Source: Agrococcus sp. Marseille-Q4369 | GTDB taxonomy: Bacteria; Actinomycetota; Actinomycetes; Actinomycetales; Microbacteriaceae | Length of the DNA: 64,000 nucleotides | Direction of reading: 5' to 3' | Assembly: GCF_018308945.1 (NCBI RefSeq) | Contig: NZ_CP070501.1 | Span: forward strand, 1,798,001-1,862,000 | Shown: piece by piece, positions 53,593-63,542 of the stretch | Numbering within the stretch: the stretch's first letter is position 1 | How the letters are laid out: every line of letters starts with the position of its first letter | Notes under the pieces: model-generated | What the model was told of the DNA's origin: nothing | The model's input: the letters and a program-made list of their open reading frames with translations, nothing else | Database searches by the model: none | Position numbers and translations under genes: made by a program

Positions 53593-55020
53593 CTACGGCG
53601 TCGGGGTGCGTGCGTCGTAGGCGAGGAACGAGCGCTGCGCGCGCGTCACGACCGCGATGAGCACGACGATGAGGAGGCCGCCGAACAGCGGCGGCGCCCA
53701 CAGCGCGACGAGGCTCGCGACGGCGCCGGCGTAGAGGTCGCCGAGGCGCGGCCCGCCCGCGACGACGACCTGGAAGAGGCCCTGCGTGCGGCCGCGCATG
53801 TCGTCGGGCGTCGCCGTGAGCATCATCGTCGAGCGGAAGATCGCGCTGATCTCGTCGCTCGCGCCCATGCCGGCCATCCCGATCGCGGCGACGATGAGCG
53901 CGGGCCACGACACCCGCGTCCAGTCGGGGCCGACCTCGCCGCCCAGGCCGAGCGTCATCGCGAGGATGACGGCGCCGACGAGCCCGACGAAGCATCCGTA
54001 GACCGTGATCGCGCGGGCGATCGCGATGCCGTGCCGGTGCACGTGCGCGACCGGGCCGGAGAAGAGGCTCGCGAGCAGCGTGCCGATCGCGGCGGCCGCG
54101 GTGAGCACGCCGACCGTGACCGGGCCGCCGCCGATCGCGAGGGCGCCGACCGCGGGCAGCAGCGCGAAGGGGCGACCGAACGTCATCGCGATGATGTCGA
54201 CGAGGAACGACATGCGGATGTTGGGTGCGTGCTCGAGGAATCGCCAGCCCTCGCGCAGCGACTCGAGGCCCGGCTTCGACACCGCGCCGAGCGGAGGCAG
54301 CTTCGGCAGCCCGATGATGCCGAGGAAGCCGGCGGTGAAGAGCACCGCGTCGATCGCGAACGTGATCGGCAGCCCGACCGTCGCGACGAGCACGCCCGCC
54401 GCGGCGGGACCGACGGTGAGCATCGTGCCGAACGAGATGCCGTTGAGCGCGGCGGCGCGGGAGATGAGGTGGGCGGGCAGGATGCGCGGGGTGACGGCCG
54501 AGCGCGTCGCTCCCGAGATCGTGGCCGCGACCGTGTTGATGGTCGTGAGCACGTAGAACGGCCACACGTGCGCGCGCTCACCCGCGGCGATGAGCGACGC
54601 GTCCCACGCGGAGAGCGCGACGAGCCCCAGCACCGCGGCCCAGCCGGTGAGGCTCGAGGCGATGAGGAGCGCGCGGCGGTCGAAGGCGTCGGCGAGCATG
54701 CCGCCCCAGAGCCCCGCGACGATCATGGGCGCGAGCGCGATGCCGCCCACGAGCGCGACCATCATGGTGCTGCCCGTCATGTCGAAGATCTGCAGGCCGA
54801 CGGCGACGATCGTCATCTGCGCGCCGATGCCGCTGATCGCGGTGCCGATCCACAGGCGGGCGAACGCCTTGCTCGCCTTGAGCGGCGCGAGGTCGACCAT
54901 GCGGCGGCGCCGCTCGGGCGCCTCGCCCGCCGTGTCGCGCGGGTCGGTCTCGACGCCCGCGGGCGGGAGGATGCCGTGCGAGCCGGTCGTCGGCTCGTCG
55001 CCCGACTCGAGGCGGGTCAC
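53593..55020 (-). CDS. MFS transporter, exporter-like (MFS_3)
   Basis: A 475-residue, twelve-span permease of the EntS-like MFS_3 group: LWIGTAISGIGAQMTIVAVG at the first helix, GGMLADAFDRRALL in loop 2-3, SAVTPRILPAHLISRAAALN, and the matching half later. A soluble N-terminus of about 30 residues precedes. The GTG start overlaps the hemA stop by 3 nt (GTGA), so it is co-transcribed with hemA; it might export a tetrapyrrole or siderophore, but only the linkage suggests that. Confidence 0.85.
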   Translation of the reverse strand: MTRLESGDEPTTGSHGILPPAGVETDPRDTAGEAPERRRRMVDLAPLKASKAFARLWIGTAISGIGAQMTIVAVGLQIFDMTGSTMMVALVGGIALAPMIVAGLWGGMLADAFDRRALLIASSLTGWAAVLGLVALSAWDASLIAAGERAHVWPFYVLTTINTVAATISGATRSAVTPRILPAHLISRAAALNGISFGTMLTVGPAAAGVLVATVGLPITFAIDAVLFTAGFLGIIGLPKLPPLGAVSKPGLESLREGWRFLEHAPNIRMSFLVDIIAMTFGRPFALLPAVGALAIGGGPVTVGVLTAAAAIGTLLASLFSGPVAHVHRHGIAIARAITVYGCFVGLVGAVILAMTLGLGGEVGPDWTRVSWPALIVAAIGMAGMGASDEISAIFRSTMMLTATPDDMRGRTQGLFQVVVAGGPRLGDLYAGAVASLVALWAPPLFGGLLIVVLIAVVTRAQRSFLAYDARTPTP

Positions 55021-56402
55021 GCGGCGGAGTCGTCGCCGAGCAGCGCGTCGATCGCCGAGAGGAGGTCGTCGTGGCGGCCCTCGGCCGCGAGCCGGCGGGC
55101 GCGCACGGTCGGCTTGTGCAGCACGACGCCCGCGAAGTGCCGCAGCGCCTGCTCGGCGAGCTTCCGCTCCGCCTCGGTGCCGCGCTTGCCGATGCGCGCG
55201 AGCTCCGCCTCGAGCGCGTCCTCGACGTGCTCGCGGAGCGTCGCGATCGCCGAGCCCACCTGGTGCTCGGCGGTGCCGCGCTCGAAGCGGCGCGCCGCCT
55301 TGCGCACGAGGTCGCGCGCGTCCTCCGTGGCCGTGAGGTGCTCGAGCGGCGCGTGGATGCGGATCGTCTCGAGGTCGAGCACCTCGACGCCCGGCACCGT
55401 CGCGACGTCGGGGTCGACGTTGCGCGGCATGCCCATGTCGACGACGAGCTGTGCGGCGCGGCCGTGCTCGACGGGGCACGCGTGCGCGGCATCCGAGTTC
55501 GAGTGCACGGGGCAGGAGGCTGCGGAGTCGTGGCCGCCCGATTCCTGGCCGACCGGGCAGACGGATGCGTCGTGCACGTGCTCGTCGGCGCCCGGGAAGG
55601 CGTGGGTCGCGGCGAGCCGCTCGCGGCCCGCGCGCAGCAGCGCGGCGTCGACGACGTGCTGGTCGGAGCTCGTGCAGGTCACGATGACGTCGGCGCTCGC
55701 GGCGGCGAGCGCGGCGTCGCGCGGGTCGACGTAGCCGATCGCGTGGCTGCGGGCGAAGCCCTCGCCGCGGTTCGAGGGGCTCCACACCTCGATGTGCTTC
55801 GCGCCGCGGCGGCGCAGCTCGGCGAGCGAGACGCCGGCGAAGCGCCCGGTGCCGACGAGCAGCACGCGCGCACCGGTCAGGTCGACGCGAGCGCTCGCGA
55901 GGTCGAGCGCGAGGCGCACGATCGAACGGCCCGCTTCGCCGAGGCCGGTGCGGTTCTTGATGCTGCGCTGCGTCTCGGAGGCGCGCTGGAAGAGCCGCTC
56001 GAGGTGCGCGGAGGTCGTGCCCGCCTCCTGCGCCGAGGCGAGCGCGCGCCGCACCTGGCCGGCGATCTCGCCCTCGCCGATCACGACCGACTCGAGGCCC
56101 GCCGCGACCGAGAAGAGGTGCTCCGCGGCGCGGGTGTCGACGAGCGGCTCGAGCGTCTCGGGGCGGTGGAAGCCGAGCGCGTCCGCGGCGGCGCCCTGCG
56201 CGATGCCGGCGGCCTCCTCGTGCTCGTCGGCGTCGACGTCGAGGTAGACCTCGAACCGATTGCACGTCGAGATGACGACGGCGCCGTCGACCGCGGGGTG
56301 CGCGGCGAAGGAGCTGGGGAGGGCGGAGGCGTCGGCGGACGACAGCGCCTCGAGGACGTCGAAGTCGGCGTTCTTGTGACTCGCCGTCAGGCAGATGAGC
56401 AC
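55017..56402 (-). CDS. hemA: Glutamyl-tRNA reductase with Cys-Pro-rich insert
   Basis: A 461-residue HemA, the first enzyme of C5 heme synthesis, which reduces glutamyl-tRNA to glutamate-1-semialdehyde. The catalytic cysteine is in ISTCNRFEVY (Cys47); GLESVVIGEGEIAGQVRRA, NRTGLGEAGRSI and LVGTGRFAG (NADPH) follow, and the dimerisation helices end the protein. Between HVVDAALLRAGRERL and AAQLVVDMGMPRNVD lies an insert of about 45 residues (266-315) with CPVGQ, CPVHS and CPVEH (Cys282, 297, 309). Cys-Pro dipeptides are typical heme-regulatory motifs, so feedback by heme is plausible. The GTG start is leaderless-type. Confidence 0.93.
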   Translation of the reverse strand: MLICLTASHKNADFDVLEALSSADASALPSSFAAHPAVDGAVVISTCNRFEVYLDVDADEHEEAAGIAQGAAADALGFHRPETLEPLVDTRAAEHLFSVAAGLESVVIGEGEIAGQVRRALASAQEAGTTSAHLERLFQRASETQRSIKNRTGLGEAGRSIVRLALDLASARVDLTGARVLLVGTGRFAGVSLAELRRRGAKHIEVWSPSNRGEGFARSHAIGYVDPRDAALAAASADVIVTCTSSDQHVVDAALLRAGRERLAATHAFPGADEHVHDASVCPVGQESGGHDSAASCPVHSNSDAAHACPVEHGRAAQLVVDMGMPRNVDPDVATVPGVEVLDLETIRIHAPLEHLTATEDARDLVRKAARRFERGTAEHQVGSAIATLREHVEDALEAELARIGKRGTEAERKLAEQALRHFAGVVLHKPTVRARRLAAEGRHDDLLSAIDALLGDDSAA

Positions 56403-56503: not shown

Positions 56504-57709
56504 ATGCGCGAGCTCGACCTCATCCTCTACGGCGCGACCGGCTTCGTCGGTCGACTCGTGGCCGAGCACCTCGCGGCCGCCGCGCCCGCTGACCTGCGCG
56601 TCGGCCTCGCGGGCCGCTCGATCGAGCGTCTCGAGCGCGTGCGGGCCGGGCTCGGGCCGTCGGCTGCGGGCTGGCTGCTCGCGCTCGCCGACAGCGGCGA
56701 CCCCGCGAGCCTGCGCTCGCTCGCCGAGCGCTCGCGCGTCGTCGTGAGCACCGTCGGCCCCTACCTCCGGCACGGGCTGCCGCTCGCGGAGGCGTGCGCC
56801 GACACCGGCACCGACTACCTCGACCTCACCGGCGAGGTGCTCTTCGTGCGAGAGCTCGTCGAGCGCTGCCACGAGCGTGCGGCGGCGAGCGGCGCGCGGC
56901 TCGTCGTCTCGAGCGGCTTCGACTCGGTGCCCTCCGACCTCTCGGTGCACGAGCTCGCCGCGCTCGCGGCCGAGCGGGGCGCCGGCGGCCTCACGGACAC
57001 GACCCTGCGGGTGCGCGAGCTCTCGGGCGGCATCAGCGGCGGCACGATCGACTCGCTCCGCGCGCAGCTCGAGCGCGCCCAGGACGATCCGCGCCTGCGG
57101 GCGATCCTCGCGGACCCCGCCGCGCTCACGGGCGGCGTACCGGTGCGCGAGGCGGCGGATGCGTCGCGGCACTTCCGCGACGACGAGACCGGGGAGTGGG
57201 CTGCACCGTTCGTGATGGCCTCGTACAACACCCGCCTCGTGCTGCGCTCGCACGCGCTGCGGGAGCGCGGCTACGGGGAGGGGTTCCGCTACCGCGAGAT
57301 CGTGCCGACCGGCCGTGGCACGGCCGGGCGGCTGCGCGCCGCGGCCCTCGCGGCCGGCGTGAACGCGCTCGCGGTCGCGCTGGCGACGCCGGGCCTCCGC
57401 CGCGTCGCCGACGCCGCGCTGCCCGCCCCCGGGGAGGGACCCTCGGAGGAGGTCCGCGCGCGCGGGCACTTCCGGATGGTCACCTCGGCGCGCACCGAGC
57501 GCGGCGACCGCCTCGAGGCGGTCTTCGCCGCGCAGGGCGACCCCGGCTACGCGGCGACCTCGGTCATGCTCGGCGAAGCGGCGCTCGCGCTCGCGGTCGA
57601 CGGCGAGCGCTGCAACCGGCGCGGCGGGGTGCTCACGCCCGCGACCGCGATGGGCGACGTGCTCGTCGAGCGCCTCCGCGCGCAGGGCTTCACGATCGAG
57701 ACGACCTGA
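56504..57709 (+). CDS. Saccharopine dehydrogenase-like oxidoreductase (trans-acting enoyl reductase type)
   Basis: A 401-residue protein with an N-terminal Rossmann domain (LDLILYGATGFVGRLVAEHL), STVGPYLRHG, and the typical VSSGFDSVPSDLSVHELA. The family includes mycobacterial trans-acting enoyl reductases (Rv2449c/Rv2953 type) and relatives of saccharopine dehydrogenase. Substrate here is unknown; lipid modification is possible. It is divergent from hemA, with CACGCT 6 nt before the ATG. It has no operon partner. Confidence 0.85.
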   Translation: MRELDLILYGATGFVGRLVAEHLAAAAPADLRVGLAGRSIERLERVRAGLGPSAAGWLLALADSGDPASLRSLAERSRVVVSTVGPYLRHGLPLAEACADTGTDYLDLTGEVLFVRELVERCHERAAASGARLVVSSGFDSVPSDLSVHELAALAAERGAGGLTDTTLRVRELSGGISGGTIDSLRAQLERAQDDPRLRAILADPAALTGGVPVREAADASRHFRDDETGEWAAPFVMASYNTRLVLRSHALRERGYGEGFRYREIVPTGRGTAGRLRAAALAAGVNALAVALATPGLRRVADAALPAPGEGPSEEVRARGHFRMVTSARTERGDRLEAVFAAQGDPGYAATSVMLGEAALALAVDGERCNRRGGVLTPATAMGDVLVERLRAQGFTIETT

Positions 57710-57781: not shown

Positions 57782-58528
57782 TCAGCCGTCGACGTAGCGC
57801 GACCACGTCCAGGCCAACTCGTTGTATGCGATTGTCCGACCGTGGAAGTCGTAGGCCTGCTCAAGACTGTCGGCATCGACGTCCTCGGGCAGCAGCGCGG
57901 CCAGCACATCAAGGAGCTGATCCATCGACAGCGTGGTCTCGGGCGGCACAGCAATGCAGAGCCAGCCTTGCTCCGCCTCCTCCGCGCCGTCGATGACTAG
58001 GTCGACCACAATCTCGACTGAACCCTGCTTATGTCGGGTCGACCGGAAGGTGTTGCTCACCTCTTGCCCCGGTTGCGCGCGAGCCTCGTCGTAGAGTTGC
58101 TGCCCCGCCGCTCTCAGCTCGTCCAACACGGCGAGCTCGGTGATCTCCTCTAGAAGTTCCTGGTCGGCGTCGCTCGGGAGGAGTTCGTCGCGCTGGCTGA
58201 GTCGCTCGAACCTTGCGTAGCCGTCCCGGCGCTCGCCGACTGCGTGCGTCTCGTCGAACGCTAGGAGCCAGCAGACGTCTTCGTCCGGGTCGTAGATGGT
58301 TACACCTCGGCCCGTTCCGACGTGCAACGTCTTGATGTGCCCGTAGGGCACGACGTTGAGCATGTTTTCGCCCTCAGCAGGAGCACCAGCACGCTTGTTC
58401 GTGAATGCTCTGAGGGCAGGGTGCAGGTGACAATAGGCCCGCGCGTCCCGAGCCGCGTGTTCTTCTGGAAGGGAGAGATCCTCAGTCAGACAACGCCTGG
58501 TGACGCGTAGCCGAGGAGAGTGGCCCAT
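57782..58528 (-). CDS. Hypothetical protein in a low-GC islet
   Basis: A 248-residue acidic cytosolic protein without membrane segments. Recognisable blocks are RAFTNKRAGAPAEGENMLNV, GRGVTIYDPDEDVCWLLAF, GYARFERLSQRDELLPSD and a C-terminal domain with EEAEQGWLCIAVPPETTL. I do not recognise a family with confidence; a middle part like this occurs in proteins from actinobacterial mobile regions. Codon choice is clearly less GC-rich than in flanking genes. It follows a 75-residue ORF by 9 nt, so the two are probably one transcript, possibly a two-component module such as toxin-antitoxin; this is only context-based. Confidence 0.6.
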   Translation of the reverse strand: MGHSPRLRVTRRCLTEDLSLPEEHAARDARAYCHLHPALRAFTNKRAGAPAEGENMLNVVPYGHIKTLHVGTGRGVTIYDPDEDVCWLLAFDETHAVGERRDGYARFERLSQRDELLPSDADQELLEEITELAVLDELRAAGQQLYDEARAQPGQEVSNTFRSTRHKQGSVEIVVDLVIDGAEEAEQGWLCIAVPPETTLSMDQLLDVLAALLPEDVDADSLEQAYDFHGRTIAYNELAWTWSRYVDG

Positions 58529-58537
58529 CCGAGCCGA

Positions 58538-58765
58538 CTAGAGCGAACGCAACCGAGCACTACGCGCTGCAGCACGCTCGCGACGAGACGCCGCGGCGAT
58601 GGCTTCGCGCTCCGCGGCCGACTGCCCCTTGCGGTTCTTGATCGCTCGCTGCAGCTCTTCGTTAGACATCCCGCGCACCTGCCGCACCAACGTTGCGTTG
58701 CTGAGCGGCGAAGTGCCACGGCGAGCAACACGGGCGCTTGTTGCGGTGTTCATGCTTGGCACCAT
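58538..58765 (-). CDS. Small basic protein paired with the 57782 gene
   Basis: A 75-residue protein rich in Arg, Ala and Ser, with a helical C-terminal half (SNEELQRAIKNRKGQSAAER, then AAASRRERAAARSARLRSL). Starts at ATG 58765 or 58753. It precedes the 248-residue gene by 9 nt on the same strand. It could be a DNA-binding or antitoxin-like partner, but no family is recognised. Confidence 0.5.
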   Translation of the reverse strand: MVPSMNTATSARVARRGTSPLSNATLVRQVRGMSNEELQRAIKNRKGQSAAEREAIAAASRRERAAARSARLRSL

Positions 58766-58835
58766 ATCGGAAAGTATGTGGGCGCTCTATACCCCGCCCA
58801 CAGAAGGCAGCAACTACGCGTGGGATGATGGAGGG

Positions 58836-59948
58836 GTGACCGCCCTGCCCGAGAACCACCCGCTCAACACGCGCACCGGCACCTCGCGGCTCGTGCGCGC
58901 GTACCGCGGCGATCGCCCCGAGACGACCCCGGTGTGGTTCATGCGGCAAGCGGGTCGCTCGCTGCCGGAGTACCGCGAGCTGCGCCAGCGCACCGACGGC
59001 CCCGACCGCGACATGCTCGACACGTGCCTCGTGCCCGAGCTTGCGAGCGAGATCACGCTCCAGCCCGTCCGCCGCCACGGCGTCGACGCCGCGATCTTCT
59101 TCAGCGACATCATGGTGCCGCTCAAGCTCGCGGGCGTCGACGTCAAGATCGCGCCCGGCGTCGGGCCCGTCGTGGCCGAACCCATCCGCACCCCTGACGA
59201 CGTCGCCCGGCTCGTCGCCAACGACCCCGCGATGCTCGACGCCGCGCTCGAGCCCGTCCGCGAGGGCGTGCGGCAGACGATCGCCGGCCTCGCCGAGCTC
59301 GGCGACGGCTCGACCCCGCTCATCGGCTTCGCCGGCGCCCCGTTCACGCTCGCCGCCTACCTCGTCGCCGGCCGCCCCTCGAAGGACCACCTGGAGGCCC
59401 GCACGCTCATGCGCGCGCACCCCGAGGCGTGGGACGCCCTCAGCCGCTGGGCCGCCGACGTGACCGGCCGGTTCCTCCGCGCCCAGGTGGAGGAGGGCGC
59501 GAGCGCCGCGCAGCTGTTCGACTCGTGGGCCGGCTCGCTGCCGCTCGAGCAGTACCGAGAGCACGTCGCCCCCGCGTCGCGCCTCGCGCTCGATCGCGTG
59601 CGCGACCTGGCCGACGCATCCGGCACCCGCGTGCCGCTCGTGCACTTCGGCGTCGGAGCCGGTGAGCTCTACGGGGCGATGGACCTCGACGTCGACGCGA
59701 TCGGCGTCGACTGGCGCGTGCCGCTCGATGTCGCGCTCGAGCGCATCGACGCCGACGTGACGGTGCAGGGCAACCTCGACCCGGCCGTGCTCGGCGCACC
59801 GTGGGAGATCATCGTCGCGGCGATCGACCACGTGATGCTCGCGGGCTCCGTCGCTCGCGCGCACGTGTTCAACCTCGGCCACGGCGTGCCGCCGACGACC
59901 GACCCCGAGGTGCTCACGCGCATCGTGCAGGCGGTGCACGCGCGGTGA
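58836..59948 (+). CDS. hemE: Uroporphyrinogen decarboxylase
   Basis: A 370-residue HemE converting uroporphyrinogen III to coproporphyrinogen III. Signatures: TPVWFMRQAGRSLPEYR near the N-terminus, the active-site loop FFSDIMVPLKLAGVDV, GFAGAPFTLAAYLV and HVFNLGHGVPPTTDP at the end. The GTG start has GATGAT 6 nt upstream and GGAGG only 1 nt upstream, so it is likely leaderless. It is first in the rightward hemE-hemY-hemQ-cpfC-hemC chain, whose members overlap by 4 nt. Confidence 0.95.
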   Translation: MTALPENHPLNTRTGTSRLVRAYRGDRPETTPVWFMRQAGRSLPEYRELRQRTDGPDRDMLDTCLVPELASEITLQPVRRHGVDAAIFFSDIMVPLKLAGVDVKIAPGVGPVVAEPIRTPDDVARLVANDPAMLDAALEPVREGVRQTIAGLAELGDGSTPLIGFAGAPFTLAAYLVAGRPSKDHLEARTLMRAHPEAWDALSRWAADVTGRFLRAQVEEGASAAQLFDSWAGSLPLEQYREHVAPASRLALDRVRDLADASGTRVPLVHFGVGAGELYGAMDLDVDAIGVDWRVPLDVALERIDADVTVQGNLDPAVLGAPWEIIVAAIDHVMLAGSVARAHVFNLGHGVPPTTDPEVLTRIVQAVHAR

Positions 59949-61522
59949 CCGACGACCGCGCGCACGTGCAGGCGGCGGATGCGTCCGCGCGCGCCGGTGC
60001 GCCGACCCACGACACGATCGTGGTCGGCGCGGGCGTCGCGGGCCTCACGGTCGCGCACGACCTCGCGGGCCGCGGCTACCGCGTGCTCGTGCTCGAGGCC
60101 TCCGATCGGCTCGGCGGCGTCGCGAGCGGCATCGAGGTCGACGGCCTCGCCCTCGACGCGGGCGCGGAGTCGTTCGCGACGCGCGGCGGCGCGGTCGCCG
60201 AGCTCGCGGCGGAGCTCGGGCTCGGTGACGACATCGTGAGCCCGAATCCCGCGGGCGCGTGGCTGCAGCTGCCGGGGCGCGCGGTGCCGCTGCCGAAGCA
60301 GACGCTGCTCGGCATCCCCGCGGTGCCGCTCGCGCGCGACGTCATCGACGCCCTCGGCTGGGGCGGAGCGATGCGCGCCTACGCCGACCGGCTCATGCCC
60401 GTGCTCAAGATCGGCAAGGACGAGGCGCTCGGCCCGCTCGTGCGCCGCCGCATGGGGCGGAAGGCGCTCGACCGGCTCGTCGCGCCGCTCGCGGGCGGCG
60501 TCTACTCCGCCGATCCCGACCTGCTCGACATCGCGGTCGTCGCCCCCGGGCTCAACAACGCCATCACGCGCGCGGGCTCGCTCTCGGGCGCCGTCGCGCT
60601 CGTGCTCGAGGAGCGCGCCGGCTCCGCGAAGCAGGCCGGCAAGCCCGGCTCGGCCGTGCAGGGCATCCGCGGCGGCATCCACCGCCTCACCGCGGCGCTC
60701 GCCGAGCGCGCGCGAGCGCACCACGCCGAGCTCCGCACGGGCGTGCGCGTGCTCTCCGCCGCGAAGACCGGGACCGGCTGGAGCGTGCAGACGGATGCGG
60801 GCGCGTTCGCCGCGTCGTCGCTCGTCGTCGCGCTCCCCGAGCGCGAGGCACGCCGCGTGCTCGGCGACGCGCTCGGCGCGGCAGCGCCCGCAGCGGAGCA
60901 GGGCGTCACCGTCGAGCTCGTCACGCTGATCTTCCCTTCCGGCGCGATCGAGGGCGACCCGCGCGGCACGGGCGTGCTCGTCGCCGCCGACGCGACGGGC
61001 GTGCGCGCGAAGGCGATGACCCACTCGAGCGCGAAGTGGCCGTGGCTGCGCGAGGCGGCCACGGGCCGCGAGGTCGTGCGCCTCTCCTACGGCTCGGGGG
61101 TCGCGGCGCCTGCGACCGAGGGGCTCGACGACGCCGCCGCGGCGGCGCTCGCGCTCGAGGACGCGAAGGCGATCCTCGGCATCGACGTCCCGCAACCGCG
61201 CGCGAGCGCCCGCGTGCGTTGGGAGCAGGGACAGCCCTCCTCGATCGTCGGCGCCAAGCGGCGCCAGCAGGCGCTTCGCGACGCCGCCACCGAGCACGAG
61301 AACCTTGAGGTCGTCGGCGCCGCCGTCGCCGGCACGGGGCTCGCGCAAGTCGTGCCGGATGCGCGCGAGGCGGCCCTCCGCATCCGCCGGGAGCGCTTCG
61401 CGATCGCCGGCACCCCCTGGACCGAGGACCTCGACGACGAGGCCGCCGTGACCGAGCCGGATGGCGCATCCGGCATTGCAGAGAACGGCACCATGACACC
61501 GAACGGACGAGGAGAGGCATGA
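59945..61522 (+). CDS. hemY: Coproporphyrinogen III oxidase (HemY/CgoX type)
   Basis: A 525-residue flavoprotein: IVVGAGVAGLTVAHDLAGRG (FAD, about residue 22), VLEASDRLGGVASG, GAESFATRGGAVAELA, and the C-terminal EVVGAAVAGTGLAQVV. In Gram-positive, coproporphyrin-dependent heme synthesis this enzyme makes coproporphyrin III rather than protoporphyrin IX; the presence of HemQ next door supports that use. GTG 59945 overlaps the hemE stop (GTGA) and its stop overlaps the hemQ ATG. Confidence 0.93.
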   Translation: MTDDRAHVQAADASARAGAPTHDTIVVGAGVAGLTVAHDLAGRGYRVLVLEASDRLGGVASGIEVDGLALDAGAESFATRGGAVAELAAELGLGDDIVSPNPAGAWLQLPGRAVPLPKQTLLGIPAVPLARDVIDALGWGGAMRAYADRLMPVLKIGKDEALGPLVRRRMGRKALDRLVAPLAGGVYSADPDLLDIAVVAPGLNNAITRAGSLSGAVALVLEERAGSAKQAGKPGSAVQGIRGGIHRLTAALAERARAHHAELRTGVRVLSAAKTGTGWSVQTDAGAFAASSLVVALPEREARRVLGDALGAAAPAAEQGVTVELVTLIFPSGAIEGDPRGTGVLVAADATGVRAKAMTHSSAKWPWLREAATGREVVRLSYGSGVAAPATEGLDDAAAAALALEDAKAILGIDVPQPRASARVRWEQGQPSSIVGAKRRQQALRDAATEHENLEVVGAAVAGTGLAQVVPDAREAALRIRRERFAIAGTPWTEDLDDEAAVTEPDGASGIAENGTMTPNGRGEA

Positions 61523-62214
61523 GCGAGCAGCAGGCATCGCCGCAGGCAGGGCAGCTGGGCGACGGGTTCACCATCTGGAGCGTGCACCGCCGCGGCGGCG
61601 CGACCGCCGGCGGAGCACCGCTCGCCGACGAGCTCGCGGCGCTCGAGGCCGACGGCGTCACGACGCGCGGCATCTACGACGTCTCGGGCATGCGCGCCGA
61701 CGCCGACGTGCTCGTGTGGATGCACGGCACCCCCGGCGCCGGGACGGGCGCCGAGGCGCTGCAGGCGGCCGTGCGCCGCGTGCGCCGCTCGCGCGAGCTC
61801 GCCGGCACGACGCAGACGTGGGGCGCGATGGGCGTGCACCGCGACGCCGAGTTCAACAAGTCGCACGTGCCCGGATTCCTCCGCGGCATCGAGCCGAAGC
61901 AGTGGGTGACGGTCTACCCGTTCAACCGCTCGTACGAGTGGTACCTGCTCGCGCCCGAGGAGCGCAGTCGCATGCTCGCCGAGCACGGCCGCGCAGGCGC
62001 CGCCTACCGCGGCGTGGTCGCGAACACCGTCGCGGCGTTCGCGCTCGGCGACTACGAGTGGATCCTGCCGCTCGAATCCGACGAGCTCGTCGAGCTCGTC
62101 GACATGATGCGCGAGCTGCGGGCCGTGGATGCGCGCCTGCACGTGCGCGAGGAGATCCCGTTCTTCACGGGCCGACGGATCACGATCGACGAGATCGAGG
62201 AGGTGCTCGCATGA
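61519..62214 (+). CDS. hemQ: Coproheme decarboxylase HemQ
   Basis: A 231-residue chlorite-dismutase-family protein: TIWSVHRRG near the N-terminus, GAMGVHRDAEFNKSHVPGFL, the key VYPFNRSYEWYLLAPEERSR and FALGDYEWILPLESD. HemQ uses peroxide to decarboxylate coproheme to heme b, the last step of the coproporphyrin pathway. The ATG overlaps the hemY stop by 4 nt and its stop overlaps the ferrochelatase ATG by 4 nt. Confidence 0.95.
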   Translation: MSEQQASPQAGQLGDGFTIWSVHRRGGATAGGAPLADELAALEADGVTTRGIYDVSGMRADADVLVWMHGTPGAGTGAEALQAAVRRVRRSRELAGTTQTWGAMGVHRDAEFNKSHVPGFLRGIEPKQWVTVYPFNRSYEWYLLAPEERSRMLAEHGRAGAAYRGVVANTVAAFALGDYEWILPLESDELVELVDMMRELRAVDARLHVREEIPFFTGRRITIDEIEEVLA

Positions 62215-63542
62215 GCGAGTCGACACAGGCAGGATCGAGCCAGGCGCAGGGCGGCTGCTGCGGCGGCGGGTGCTGCGGAGGCGCGGCCGTGCAGGCCCAG
62301 CCGGAGCAGCAGCAGGCGGAGCAGCAGGGCCGCCGCGAGACGAAGGCGCCCGCCGCGACCGGCGTGCACCTCGAGCCCGGCGCCGCGGTGCCGAGCGCGA
62401 CCGAGGCCGCGCAGGCCGGGCCCGAGCACGTCGAGGAGCCCGTCGCCTACGACGGCATCCTGCTGTCGGGCTTCGGCGGGCCGGAGGGGCAGGACGACGT
62501 GCTGCCGTTCCTCCGCAACGTCACGCGCGGCCGCGGCATCCCGGACGAGCGGCTCGAGGAGGTCGCGACCCACTACCGCCACTTCGGCGGCGTGAGCCCG
62601 ATCAACGACCAGAACCGCGAGCTCAAGGCCGCGCTCGAGGCGGCGCTCGCCGAGGCGGGCCTCGACCTGCCCGTCTACTGGGGCAACCGCAACTGGGCGC
62701 CCTACCTCGACGAGGCGCTGCAGCAGGCGGCCGACGCGGGCGCCTCGAAGCTCCTCGCCATCCCGACCTCCGCGTACTCGTCGTACTCCTCGTGCCGTCA
62801 GTACCGCGAGGACTGGGCCGACGCGCTCGAGGCGACGGGACTGCAGGCGTCGATGCAGATCGACAAGGTGCGCCAGTTCTTCAACCACCCGGGCTTCCTC
62901 GCGCCGTTCGTCGACGGCGTGCGCGCGAGCGTCGCCGAGGCGCGCGAGGCGGGCTTCGCCGAGGCCGACGTCGAGGTGCTCTTCGCGACCCACAGCATCC
63001 CCACCGCCGACGCGGAGCGCTCGGGCGCACCCGACCTGCACGAGTGGGGGCCGGGCGGCGGCTACGAGGCGCAGCACCTCGCCGCGGCCGAGCACGTGAT
63101 GGCCGAGGCGGCGCCGGGCGTCGCGTGGCAGCTCGTCTACCAGTCGCGCTCGGGGCCCGCCTCGCAGCCGTGGCTCGAGCCCGACATCAACGACGCGATC
63201 GAGGCGCTCGGCAAGGATGAGCACCGTGGCCGGAAGGCGGTCGTCATCGTGCCGCTCGGCTTCGTGAGCGACCACATGGAGGTCATGTGGGACCTCGACG
63301 AGGAGGCGATCGAGACGGCGACCGAGGCGGGCCTGTGGGTGCGCCGCGCCCCGACGCCCGGCGTCGACCCGCAGTACGTCGGCGCGCTCGTCGACCTCGT
63401 GCAGGAGCGGCTCGAGGGCCGGCCGGTCGCCGAGCGGAAGGCCGTCACCTCGATCCACCCCTGGTACGACGTCTGCCGCCCCGGCTGCTGCGAGAACCCG
63501 CGGCTCGGGTTCCGGCCGGCGATCGCGGGGCTGCAGCCGTGA
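62211..63542 (+). CDS. cpfC: Coproporphyrin ferrochelatase with Cys-rich N-terminal tail
   Basis: A 443-residue ferrochelatase inserting Fe(II) into coproporphyrin III. Core motifs: GILLSGFGGPEGQDDVLPFL, YRHFGGVSPIND, the active-site FATHSIPT, YQSRSGPASQPWLEPD and GFVSDHMEVMWDLD. Four cysteines that fit the actinobacterial [2Fe-2S] site are SSCRQYRED and the C-terminal DVCRPGCCEN. The first 80 residues are extra: GGCCGGGCCGGAAV (from residue 14) then a Gln/Ala/Glu-rich linker. Such a CC-GGG-CC tail could bind metal. Overlaps hemQ and hemC by 4 nt. Confidence 0.93.
   Translation: MSESTQAGSSQAQGGCCGGGCCGGAAVQAQPEQQQAEQQGRRETKAPAATGVHLEPGAAVPSATEAAQAGPEHVEEPVAYDGILLSGFGGPEGQDDVLPFLRNVTRGRGIPDERLEEVATHYRHFGGVSPINDQNRELKAALEAALAEAGLDLPVYWGNRNWAPYLDEALQQAADAGASKLLAIPTSAYSSYSSCRQYREDWADALEATGLQASMQIDKVRQFFNHPGFLAPFVDGVRASVAEAREAGFAEADVEVLFATHSIPTADAERSGAPDLHEWGPGGGYEAQHLAAAEHVMAEAAPGVAWQLVYQSRSGPASQPWLEPDINDAIEALGKDEHRGRKAVVIVPLGFVSDHMEVMWDLDEEAIETATEAGLWVRRAPTPGVDPQYVGALVDLVQERLEGRPVAERKAVTSIHPWYDVCRPGCCENPRLGFRPAIAGLQP

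Follow-up and report, generated by a model that had tools for sequence, protein, structure and literature searches.

The hemA Locus and Its Neighborhood

The window analysed here, a 64,000-nucleotide stretch of the Agrococcus sp. Marseille-Q4369 genome, contains a gene for glutamyl-tRNA reductase (GluTR) on the minus strand and, to its right, several further heme biosynthesis genes on the plus strand:

55017..56402, minus strand, hemA, glutamyl-tRNA reductase (GluTR), 461 aa, GTG start (PF05201, PF01488 and PF00745; NF000750)
58599..59948, plus strand, hemE, uroporphyrinogen decarboxylase, a nearby heme gene whose true start is probably later
59801..61522, plus strand, protoporphyrinogen/coproporphyrinogen oxidase of the hemY/cgoX type
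61519..62214, plus strand, chdC/hemQ (PF06778)
61716..63542, plus strand, ORF with a ferrochelatase domain (residues 246–565)

The set formed by hemE, the hemY/cgoX-type oxidase, chdC, and the ferrochelatase domain fits the coproporphyrin-dependent pathway. Between hemA and hemE lie a gene with a saccharopine-dehydrogenase NADP domain (56504–57709) and an ORF with no family match (57782–58528).

HemA scored 423.5 bits against the NCBIfam model NF000750 (cut-off 289), contains the GlutR_N, NADPH, and dimerisation domains as well as the cysteine of the TCNR motif, and is the single GluTR match in the source genome (2.74 Mb, one contig). Among named relatives, Agrococcus lahaulensis and A. pavilionensis come closest (best tblastn segment at 95 percent), and the solved GluTR structures related by sequence are 4n7r (also 5che and 5yjl) and 1gpj. 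GluTR supplies the first committed precursor of heme.

An Insert in the NADPH Domain Carries Three Cys-Pro-Val Sites

The HemA sequence includes a variable loop delimited by alignment and by model confidence (pLDDT), in which translation places three Cys-Pro (CP) dipeptides, each followed by Val:

55452..55628, minus strand, insert, residues 259–317 (59 residues), a variable loop inside the NADPH domain
55557..55559, minus strand, Cys282 of CPVGQ (site 1)
55512..55514, minus strand, Cys297 of CPVHS (site 2)
55476..55478, minus strand, Cys309 of CPVEHGR (site 3)

The initial annotation, which had proposed three CP motifs with histidines nearby, was thus borne out on both counts, as the motifs are spaced by 15 (C282 to C297) and 12 (C297 to C309) residues and seven His lie in or adjoin the insert (267, 275, 277, 291, 300, 307, and 313). 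The only other cysteines of HemA are at positions 4, 47, and 243, none of them in a CP; C47 lies within the TCNR motif and is invariant across 40 aligned sequences. An AlphaFold2 model of one monomer, built from a 40-sequence alignment, has a mean pLDDT of 79.7, with segments 269–273 and 275–313 below 50, and most of the insert (269–313) is therefore predicted to be disordered. The insert had been placed between the NADPH domain and the dimerisation spine; the model instead bounds it by a helix (253–267) and a strand (318–322), within the NADPH domain.

In the window, a DNA pattern scan was uninformative, with 15 matches versus 16.67 expected, and a CP at residue 9 of the hemE ORF was dropped because it precedes the likely true start.

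CP Motifs Are Retained in Agrococcus HemA

HemA was found in all 24 genomes of the genus that were searched, and all 24 have CP in the insert (in one case solely in another reading frame), so that the motif is indeed retained in close relatives: the insert carries three CP in 17 genomes, two in three, and one in three, and is frameshifted in one. In this last genome (G018; loci L102 and L108) a frameshift within the insert splits HemA and the other frame has three CP; this one-contig assembly may contain a sequencing error here. Within the main Agrococcus group, insert length ranged from 51 to 82 residues among 20 distinct sequences; three CP were present in 17 of them and two in the other 3. 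The 17 three-CP inserts could be aligned with an average identity of 47 percent; since they were picked for having three CP, the invariance of the three CP in this alignment was not used as evidence. Site 2 is followed by a His at +3 in 16 of these 17 inserts, and site 3 reads CPV[ED]HGR in all of them. Over the 20 inserts the Cys codon of CP was always TGC (57/57) and the Pro codon varied (CCC 31, CCG 24, CCT 2), a variation that points to selection on the protein.

CP Motifs in Long Inserts across Microbacteriaceae

The CP survey covered the GluTR of Actinomycetota. For Microbacteriaceae, the set consisted of 160 distinct protein rows with 158 distinct inserts, drawn from 80 named loci, the genus genomes, and about one genome per genus from 120 (107 matched, 13 without a match); L109, in which no ORF was found, was left out. 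CP was present in 82 of the 103 inserts of at least 20 residues and in 1 of the 55 shorter ones. The residue that follows CP was V in 91 of 120 occurrences and V, I, M, A, or L in 117, and the last CP sits 7–15 residues ahead of the insert end, where the strand begins, in 78 of the 83 CP-bearing inserts; by this distance, site 3 of HemA matches in place the single CP of other Microbacteriaceae. The loop sequence is hypervariable around the retained CP, and conservation of a His close to CP is confined to some clades.

Neutral drift of the loop, or a bias in its composition, could in principle yield CP dipeptides, and Ala, Gly, and Pro are abundant in CP-bearing inserts. However, 120 of the 127 Cys in Microbacteriaceae inserts precede Pro, compared with a mean of 13.7 and a maximum of 28 in 2000 shuffles per insert, and with 6.0 percent of Cys in a background control of 640 gene-like ORFs (245,409 residues) from the loci of the 80 named relatives, making this explanation extremely improbable. 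The control ORFs were unannotated and chosen by codon-position GC; 71 HemA were excluded for the 80 loci, and any left in could only raise the background. CP[VILMA] occurred in them at 0.086 per 1000 residues, and three CP within 60 residues occurred in one ORF of the 640, a HemA fragment (L011) missed by the filter.

A second alternative, in which the three Cys of the Agrococcus insert and nearby His bind zinc or an iron-sulfur cluster, draws on the three Cys and seven His in or beside the HemA insert. Outside the main Agrococcus group, however, just one Cys is present in 60 of the 63 CP-bearing inserts, too few ligands for such a site, which would at best be an Agrococcus addition; as three or four kept ligands were not found, a zinc or iron-sulfur site was rejected for the clade as a whole, and we consider it very unlikely. 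A lone Cys suits a single axial heme ligand, rather than a zinc site or an internal disulfide, and thus favours a heme-regulatory reading of the CP motif.

CP was absent from 21 of the 103 long Microbacteriaceae inserts, including the frameshifted one (L102/L108); 12 of the other 20 belong to records named Agromyces. The motif is therefore dispensable, which counts against the heme-regulatory reading.

Distribution of Loop CP on the GluTR Tree and a Second Lineage with Long Loops

A quick tree of 214 rows was built after the insert had been removed. All 41 Microbacteriaceae rows with a loop CP fell in one 61-row subclade (support 89), and five loop-CP rows of family f18 were found in a separate 12-row subclade; none of the 78 rows of other Actinomycetota on the tree had a loop CP, and the two proteins with a loop CP among 88 distinct non-Microbacteriaceae proteins both belonged to f18. 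Within Microbacteriaceae the tree implies at least 9 changes of state, a figure to be read with the weak branches (11, 23, and 32) and the quick search in mind, given which gains and losses of CP are not safely countable.

The loop CP of family f18 was found in its genus g110, probably Streptomyces (genomes of 5.5 to 11.3 Mb); other genera of f18 had a loop CP in 0/25 loci. We parsed 50 g110 inserts from 54 loci examined; 30 of the loci were the top-ranking hits of a query that itself carried CP, 20 others were added, and 10 of the 61 genomes were not included. Four rows were left out, two without an ORF (L338 and L352) and two unparsed (L284 and L322), the latter showing by eye a short loop without CP and one CP, respectively. 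Every g110 insert of at least 99 residues contained exactly one CP (32/32), and shorter inserts contained none (0/10 of 25–78 residues and 0/8 shorter still). Because the query behind 30 of the loci itself carried CP, the share of g110 species with CP is biased upward; the rule of one CP per long loop is unaffected by this bias. Cys preceded Pro in 32 of 34 cases (shuffle mean 3.4, maximum 10), the commonest context being [DE][DE][GN]CP[LV][DG]L, and the g110 CP lies at the same place in the enzyme as the Microbacteriaceae loop.

Besides CP, many g110 inserts of 99–184 residues (L280–L282, L310–L358) have a common block like GEAAVAGMDAATLEQHAAW, which may represent a second function of the g110 loop. 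Some Streptomyces-like genomes (G356, G391, G397, and G399; G329 and G338) also contain a second, diverged GluTR match (41–47 percent identity), perhaps tied to secondary metabolism.

CP Motifs in C-Terminal Tails

Two further families, which from our inference are probably Micrococcaceae (f6) and Brevibacteriaceae (f10), carry CP in a different part of the enzyme (loci L359–L385 and L394–L418). Among 31 f6 enzymes examined, out of 41 genomes searched, none had a loop CP and 22 had CP in the variable C-terminal tail, where 22 of 24 Cys precede Pro (shuffle mean 2.2, maximum 9; 5000 shuffles), most commonly as CPVDH. The remaining nine have CP in neither loop nor tail, which weakens the heme-regulatory reading. 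In f10 (one genus), all 29 enzymes examined have a tail CP and none a loop CP; in the distinct tails 28 of 28 Cys precede Pro, nearly always as DACP[AV]. Two genomes of another f10 genus gave no match, and the C-terminal tails of Streptomycetaceae had no Cys among 77 examined. When the f6 and f10 tail statistics and the g110 shuffles are set beside the Microbacteriaceae shuffles and the ORF background, CP is kept beyond chance in loops and tails, and chance or drift was rejected.

Tail CP also occurs within Microbacteriaceae, in seven proteins, one of which (L121) has a loop CP too; L207, with the same genus code as L121, has a tail CP only. In genus g56, the loop is short and lacks CP in all five genomes searched, the motif appearing instead in the tail as CPVGG, CPITG, or CPVTG, and the quick tree places two g56 rows, weakly, among loop-CP rows. 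These cases are only suggestive of a tail CP replacing the loop CP, as the independent events are few. Taken as sequence comparisons, loops and tails suggest that the thing selected is a tethered C-P-hydrophobic motif that is movable, rather than a fixed position.

Movable short motifs on a tether are typical of docking motifs. The CP motif might accordingly be bound by a partner (a protease adaptor, GsaM, or GluRS), with Cys as a contact residue, and excerpts of one review describe recombinant M. tuberculosis GluTR as found with GluRS (PMC10991733). The near-absolute Cys would be unusual for a plain docking contact, however, and no partner was identified, so that we regard docking as rather unlikely. 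A thiol redox or mycothiol switch, in which stress leads to oxidation or S-thiolation of the CP cysteine and to a change in GluTR output, with heme not being a ligand, would agree with a single Cys on a predicted disordered tether, and titles cited in the literature describe the CP motifs of heme oxygenase-2 as a thiol/disulfide switch. Such a switch leaves unexplained why nearly every Cys is followed by Pro and then mostly by V, I, L, M, or A, and we consider it unlikely.

Candidate Heme-Regulatory Role of the CP Motifs

We hold with high confidence that the CP motif of GluTR is functional, and the conservation patterns support well that it belongs to an added element under selection. The best reading of the insert CP is, in our judgement, a heme-regulatory motif, which we consider somewhat more likely than not. 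The initial annotation had presented the insert as an added regulatory loop that senses heme: the selected, added element stands, and its candidate role as a heme sensor draws on the match to the CP class together with the known heme control of GluTR and of 5-aminolevulinate (ALA)-forming ALAS elsewhere. The HemA sites share the pattern of CP-type heme-regulatory motifs, namely CP in a flexible loop with aliphatic neighbours, a pattern derived from mammalian proteins (PMC10377097). The insert would thus serve as a disordered tether bearing heme-regulatory CP motifs; as free heme rises, the CP cysteine thiolate would bind ferric heme, together with nearby His in Agrococcus, and the heme-loaded loop would lower GluTR output, either because it blocks the NADPH domain or because it marks GluTR for degradation.

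The reading is weakened by the poor conservation of His outside some clades, by the S. aureus precedent (below), and by the lack of association between CP and heme oxygenase (PF01126), the gene being present in 17/22 genomes with a loop CP and in 37/59 without (P = 0.29, kinship ignored). The source genome has no PF01126 match; 78 of the 120 family genomes have one.

More broadly, the GluTR of Actinomycetota may have repeatedly evolved a location-independent heme sensor, consisting of one to three C-P-[V/A/L/I/M] motifs on any disordered tether (loop or tail) and movable between them, which would be the C5 counterpart of the ALAS CP motifs, both ALA routes having converged on the same product feedback; we see this generalization as evenly balanced between being right and wrong. 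For several actinobacterial lineages, the selected CP motif is a concrete candidate for direct feedback that can be mutated, and relatives that lack CP serve as natural controls. If true, such feedback would provide a parallel to ALAS and a handle for the production of ALA, heme, or porphyrin.

Comparison with Known Systems

The comparisons below rest on excerpts of the cited papers. CP motifs of heme-regulated proteins are described there as lying mostly in loops; heme bound to them is typically penta-coordinated and has its band near 370 nm, and binding shifts towards 420 nm where a His is close by (PMC10377097). ALAS1, the enzyme of the other route to ALA, resembles the present case as a first committed enzyme with CP motifs outside the catalytic core, with three such motifs reported in the leader (PMC6154995) and two per ALAS isoform elsewhere (PMC3570980). 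It differs in being an unrelated enzyme of the C4 rather than the C5 pathway, with motifs in a mitochondrial leader that act on import; heme also speeds ALAS1 degradation (PMC6154995, PMC12288459, PMC3570980). In Salmonella, GluTR (HemA) itself shows heme-dependent abundance involving a cysteine, but the excerpt describes heme binding via Cys170 and N-terminal proteolysis, with degradation by ClpAP and Lon, rather than an insert with CP motifs (PMC5801465). Both heme and GluRS accompanied recombinant M. tuberculosis GluTR on its isolation, GluTR rises in mycobacteria without Pup, and binding of heme by S. aureus GluTR is reported to leave homeostasis unaffected (PMC10991733). The GtrR-HemX systems of S. 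aureus and B. subtilis likewise involve heme-dependent control of the amount of GluTR in Gram-positives; they act through the membrane protein HemX, and no CP insert is described for them in the excerpts.

We found no report of a CP motif in GluTR in open-access full-text literature, the portion searched, most subscription journals being outside its scope; where "glutamyl-tRNA reductase" and "heme regulatory motif" occur in the same paper, the passages retrieved link the motif with other proteins (PMC11442138, PMC6154995, PMC12288459, PMC3570980). A 2024 review of Gram-positive heme synthesis lists heme- or iron-dependent transcription, HemX, phosphorylation, and pupylation as controls of GtrR, several of these links needing further study, and its available passages do not mention a CP motif for GtrR (PMC10991733). 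CP motifs and the control of GluTR by heme are each known separately; their union, recurrence, and mobility appear to be new. A bacterial CP with a close His is described for Irr of Bradyrhizobium, which differs in being a transcription regulator; its motif, GCPWHD (PMC11442138), is comparable to GCPVHA and CPVEH here.
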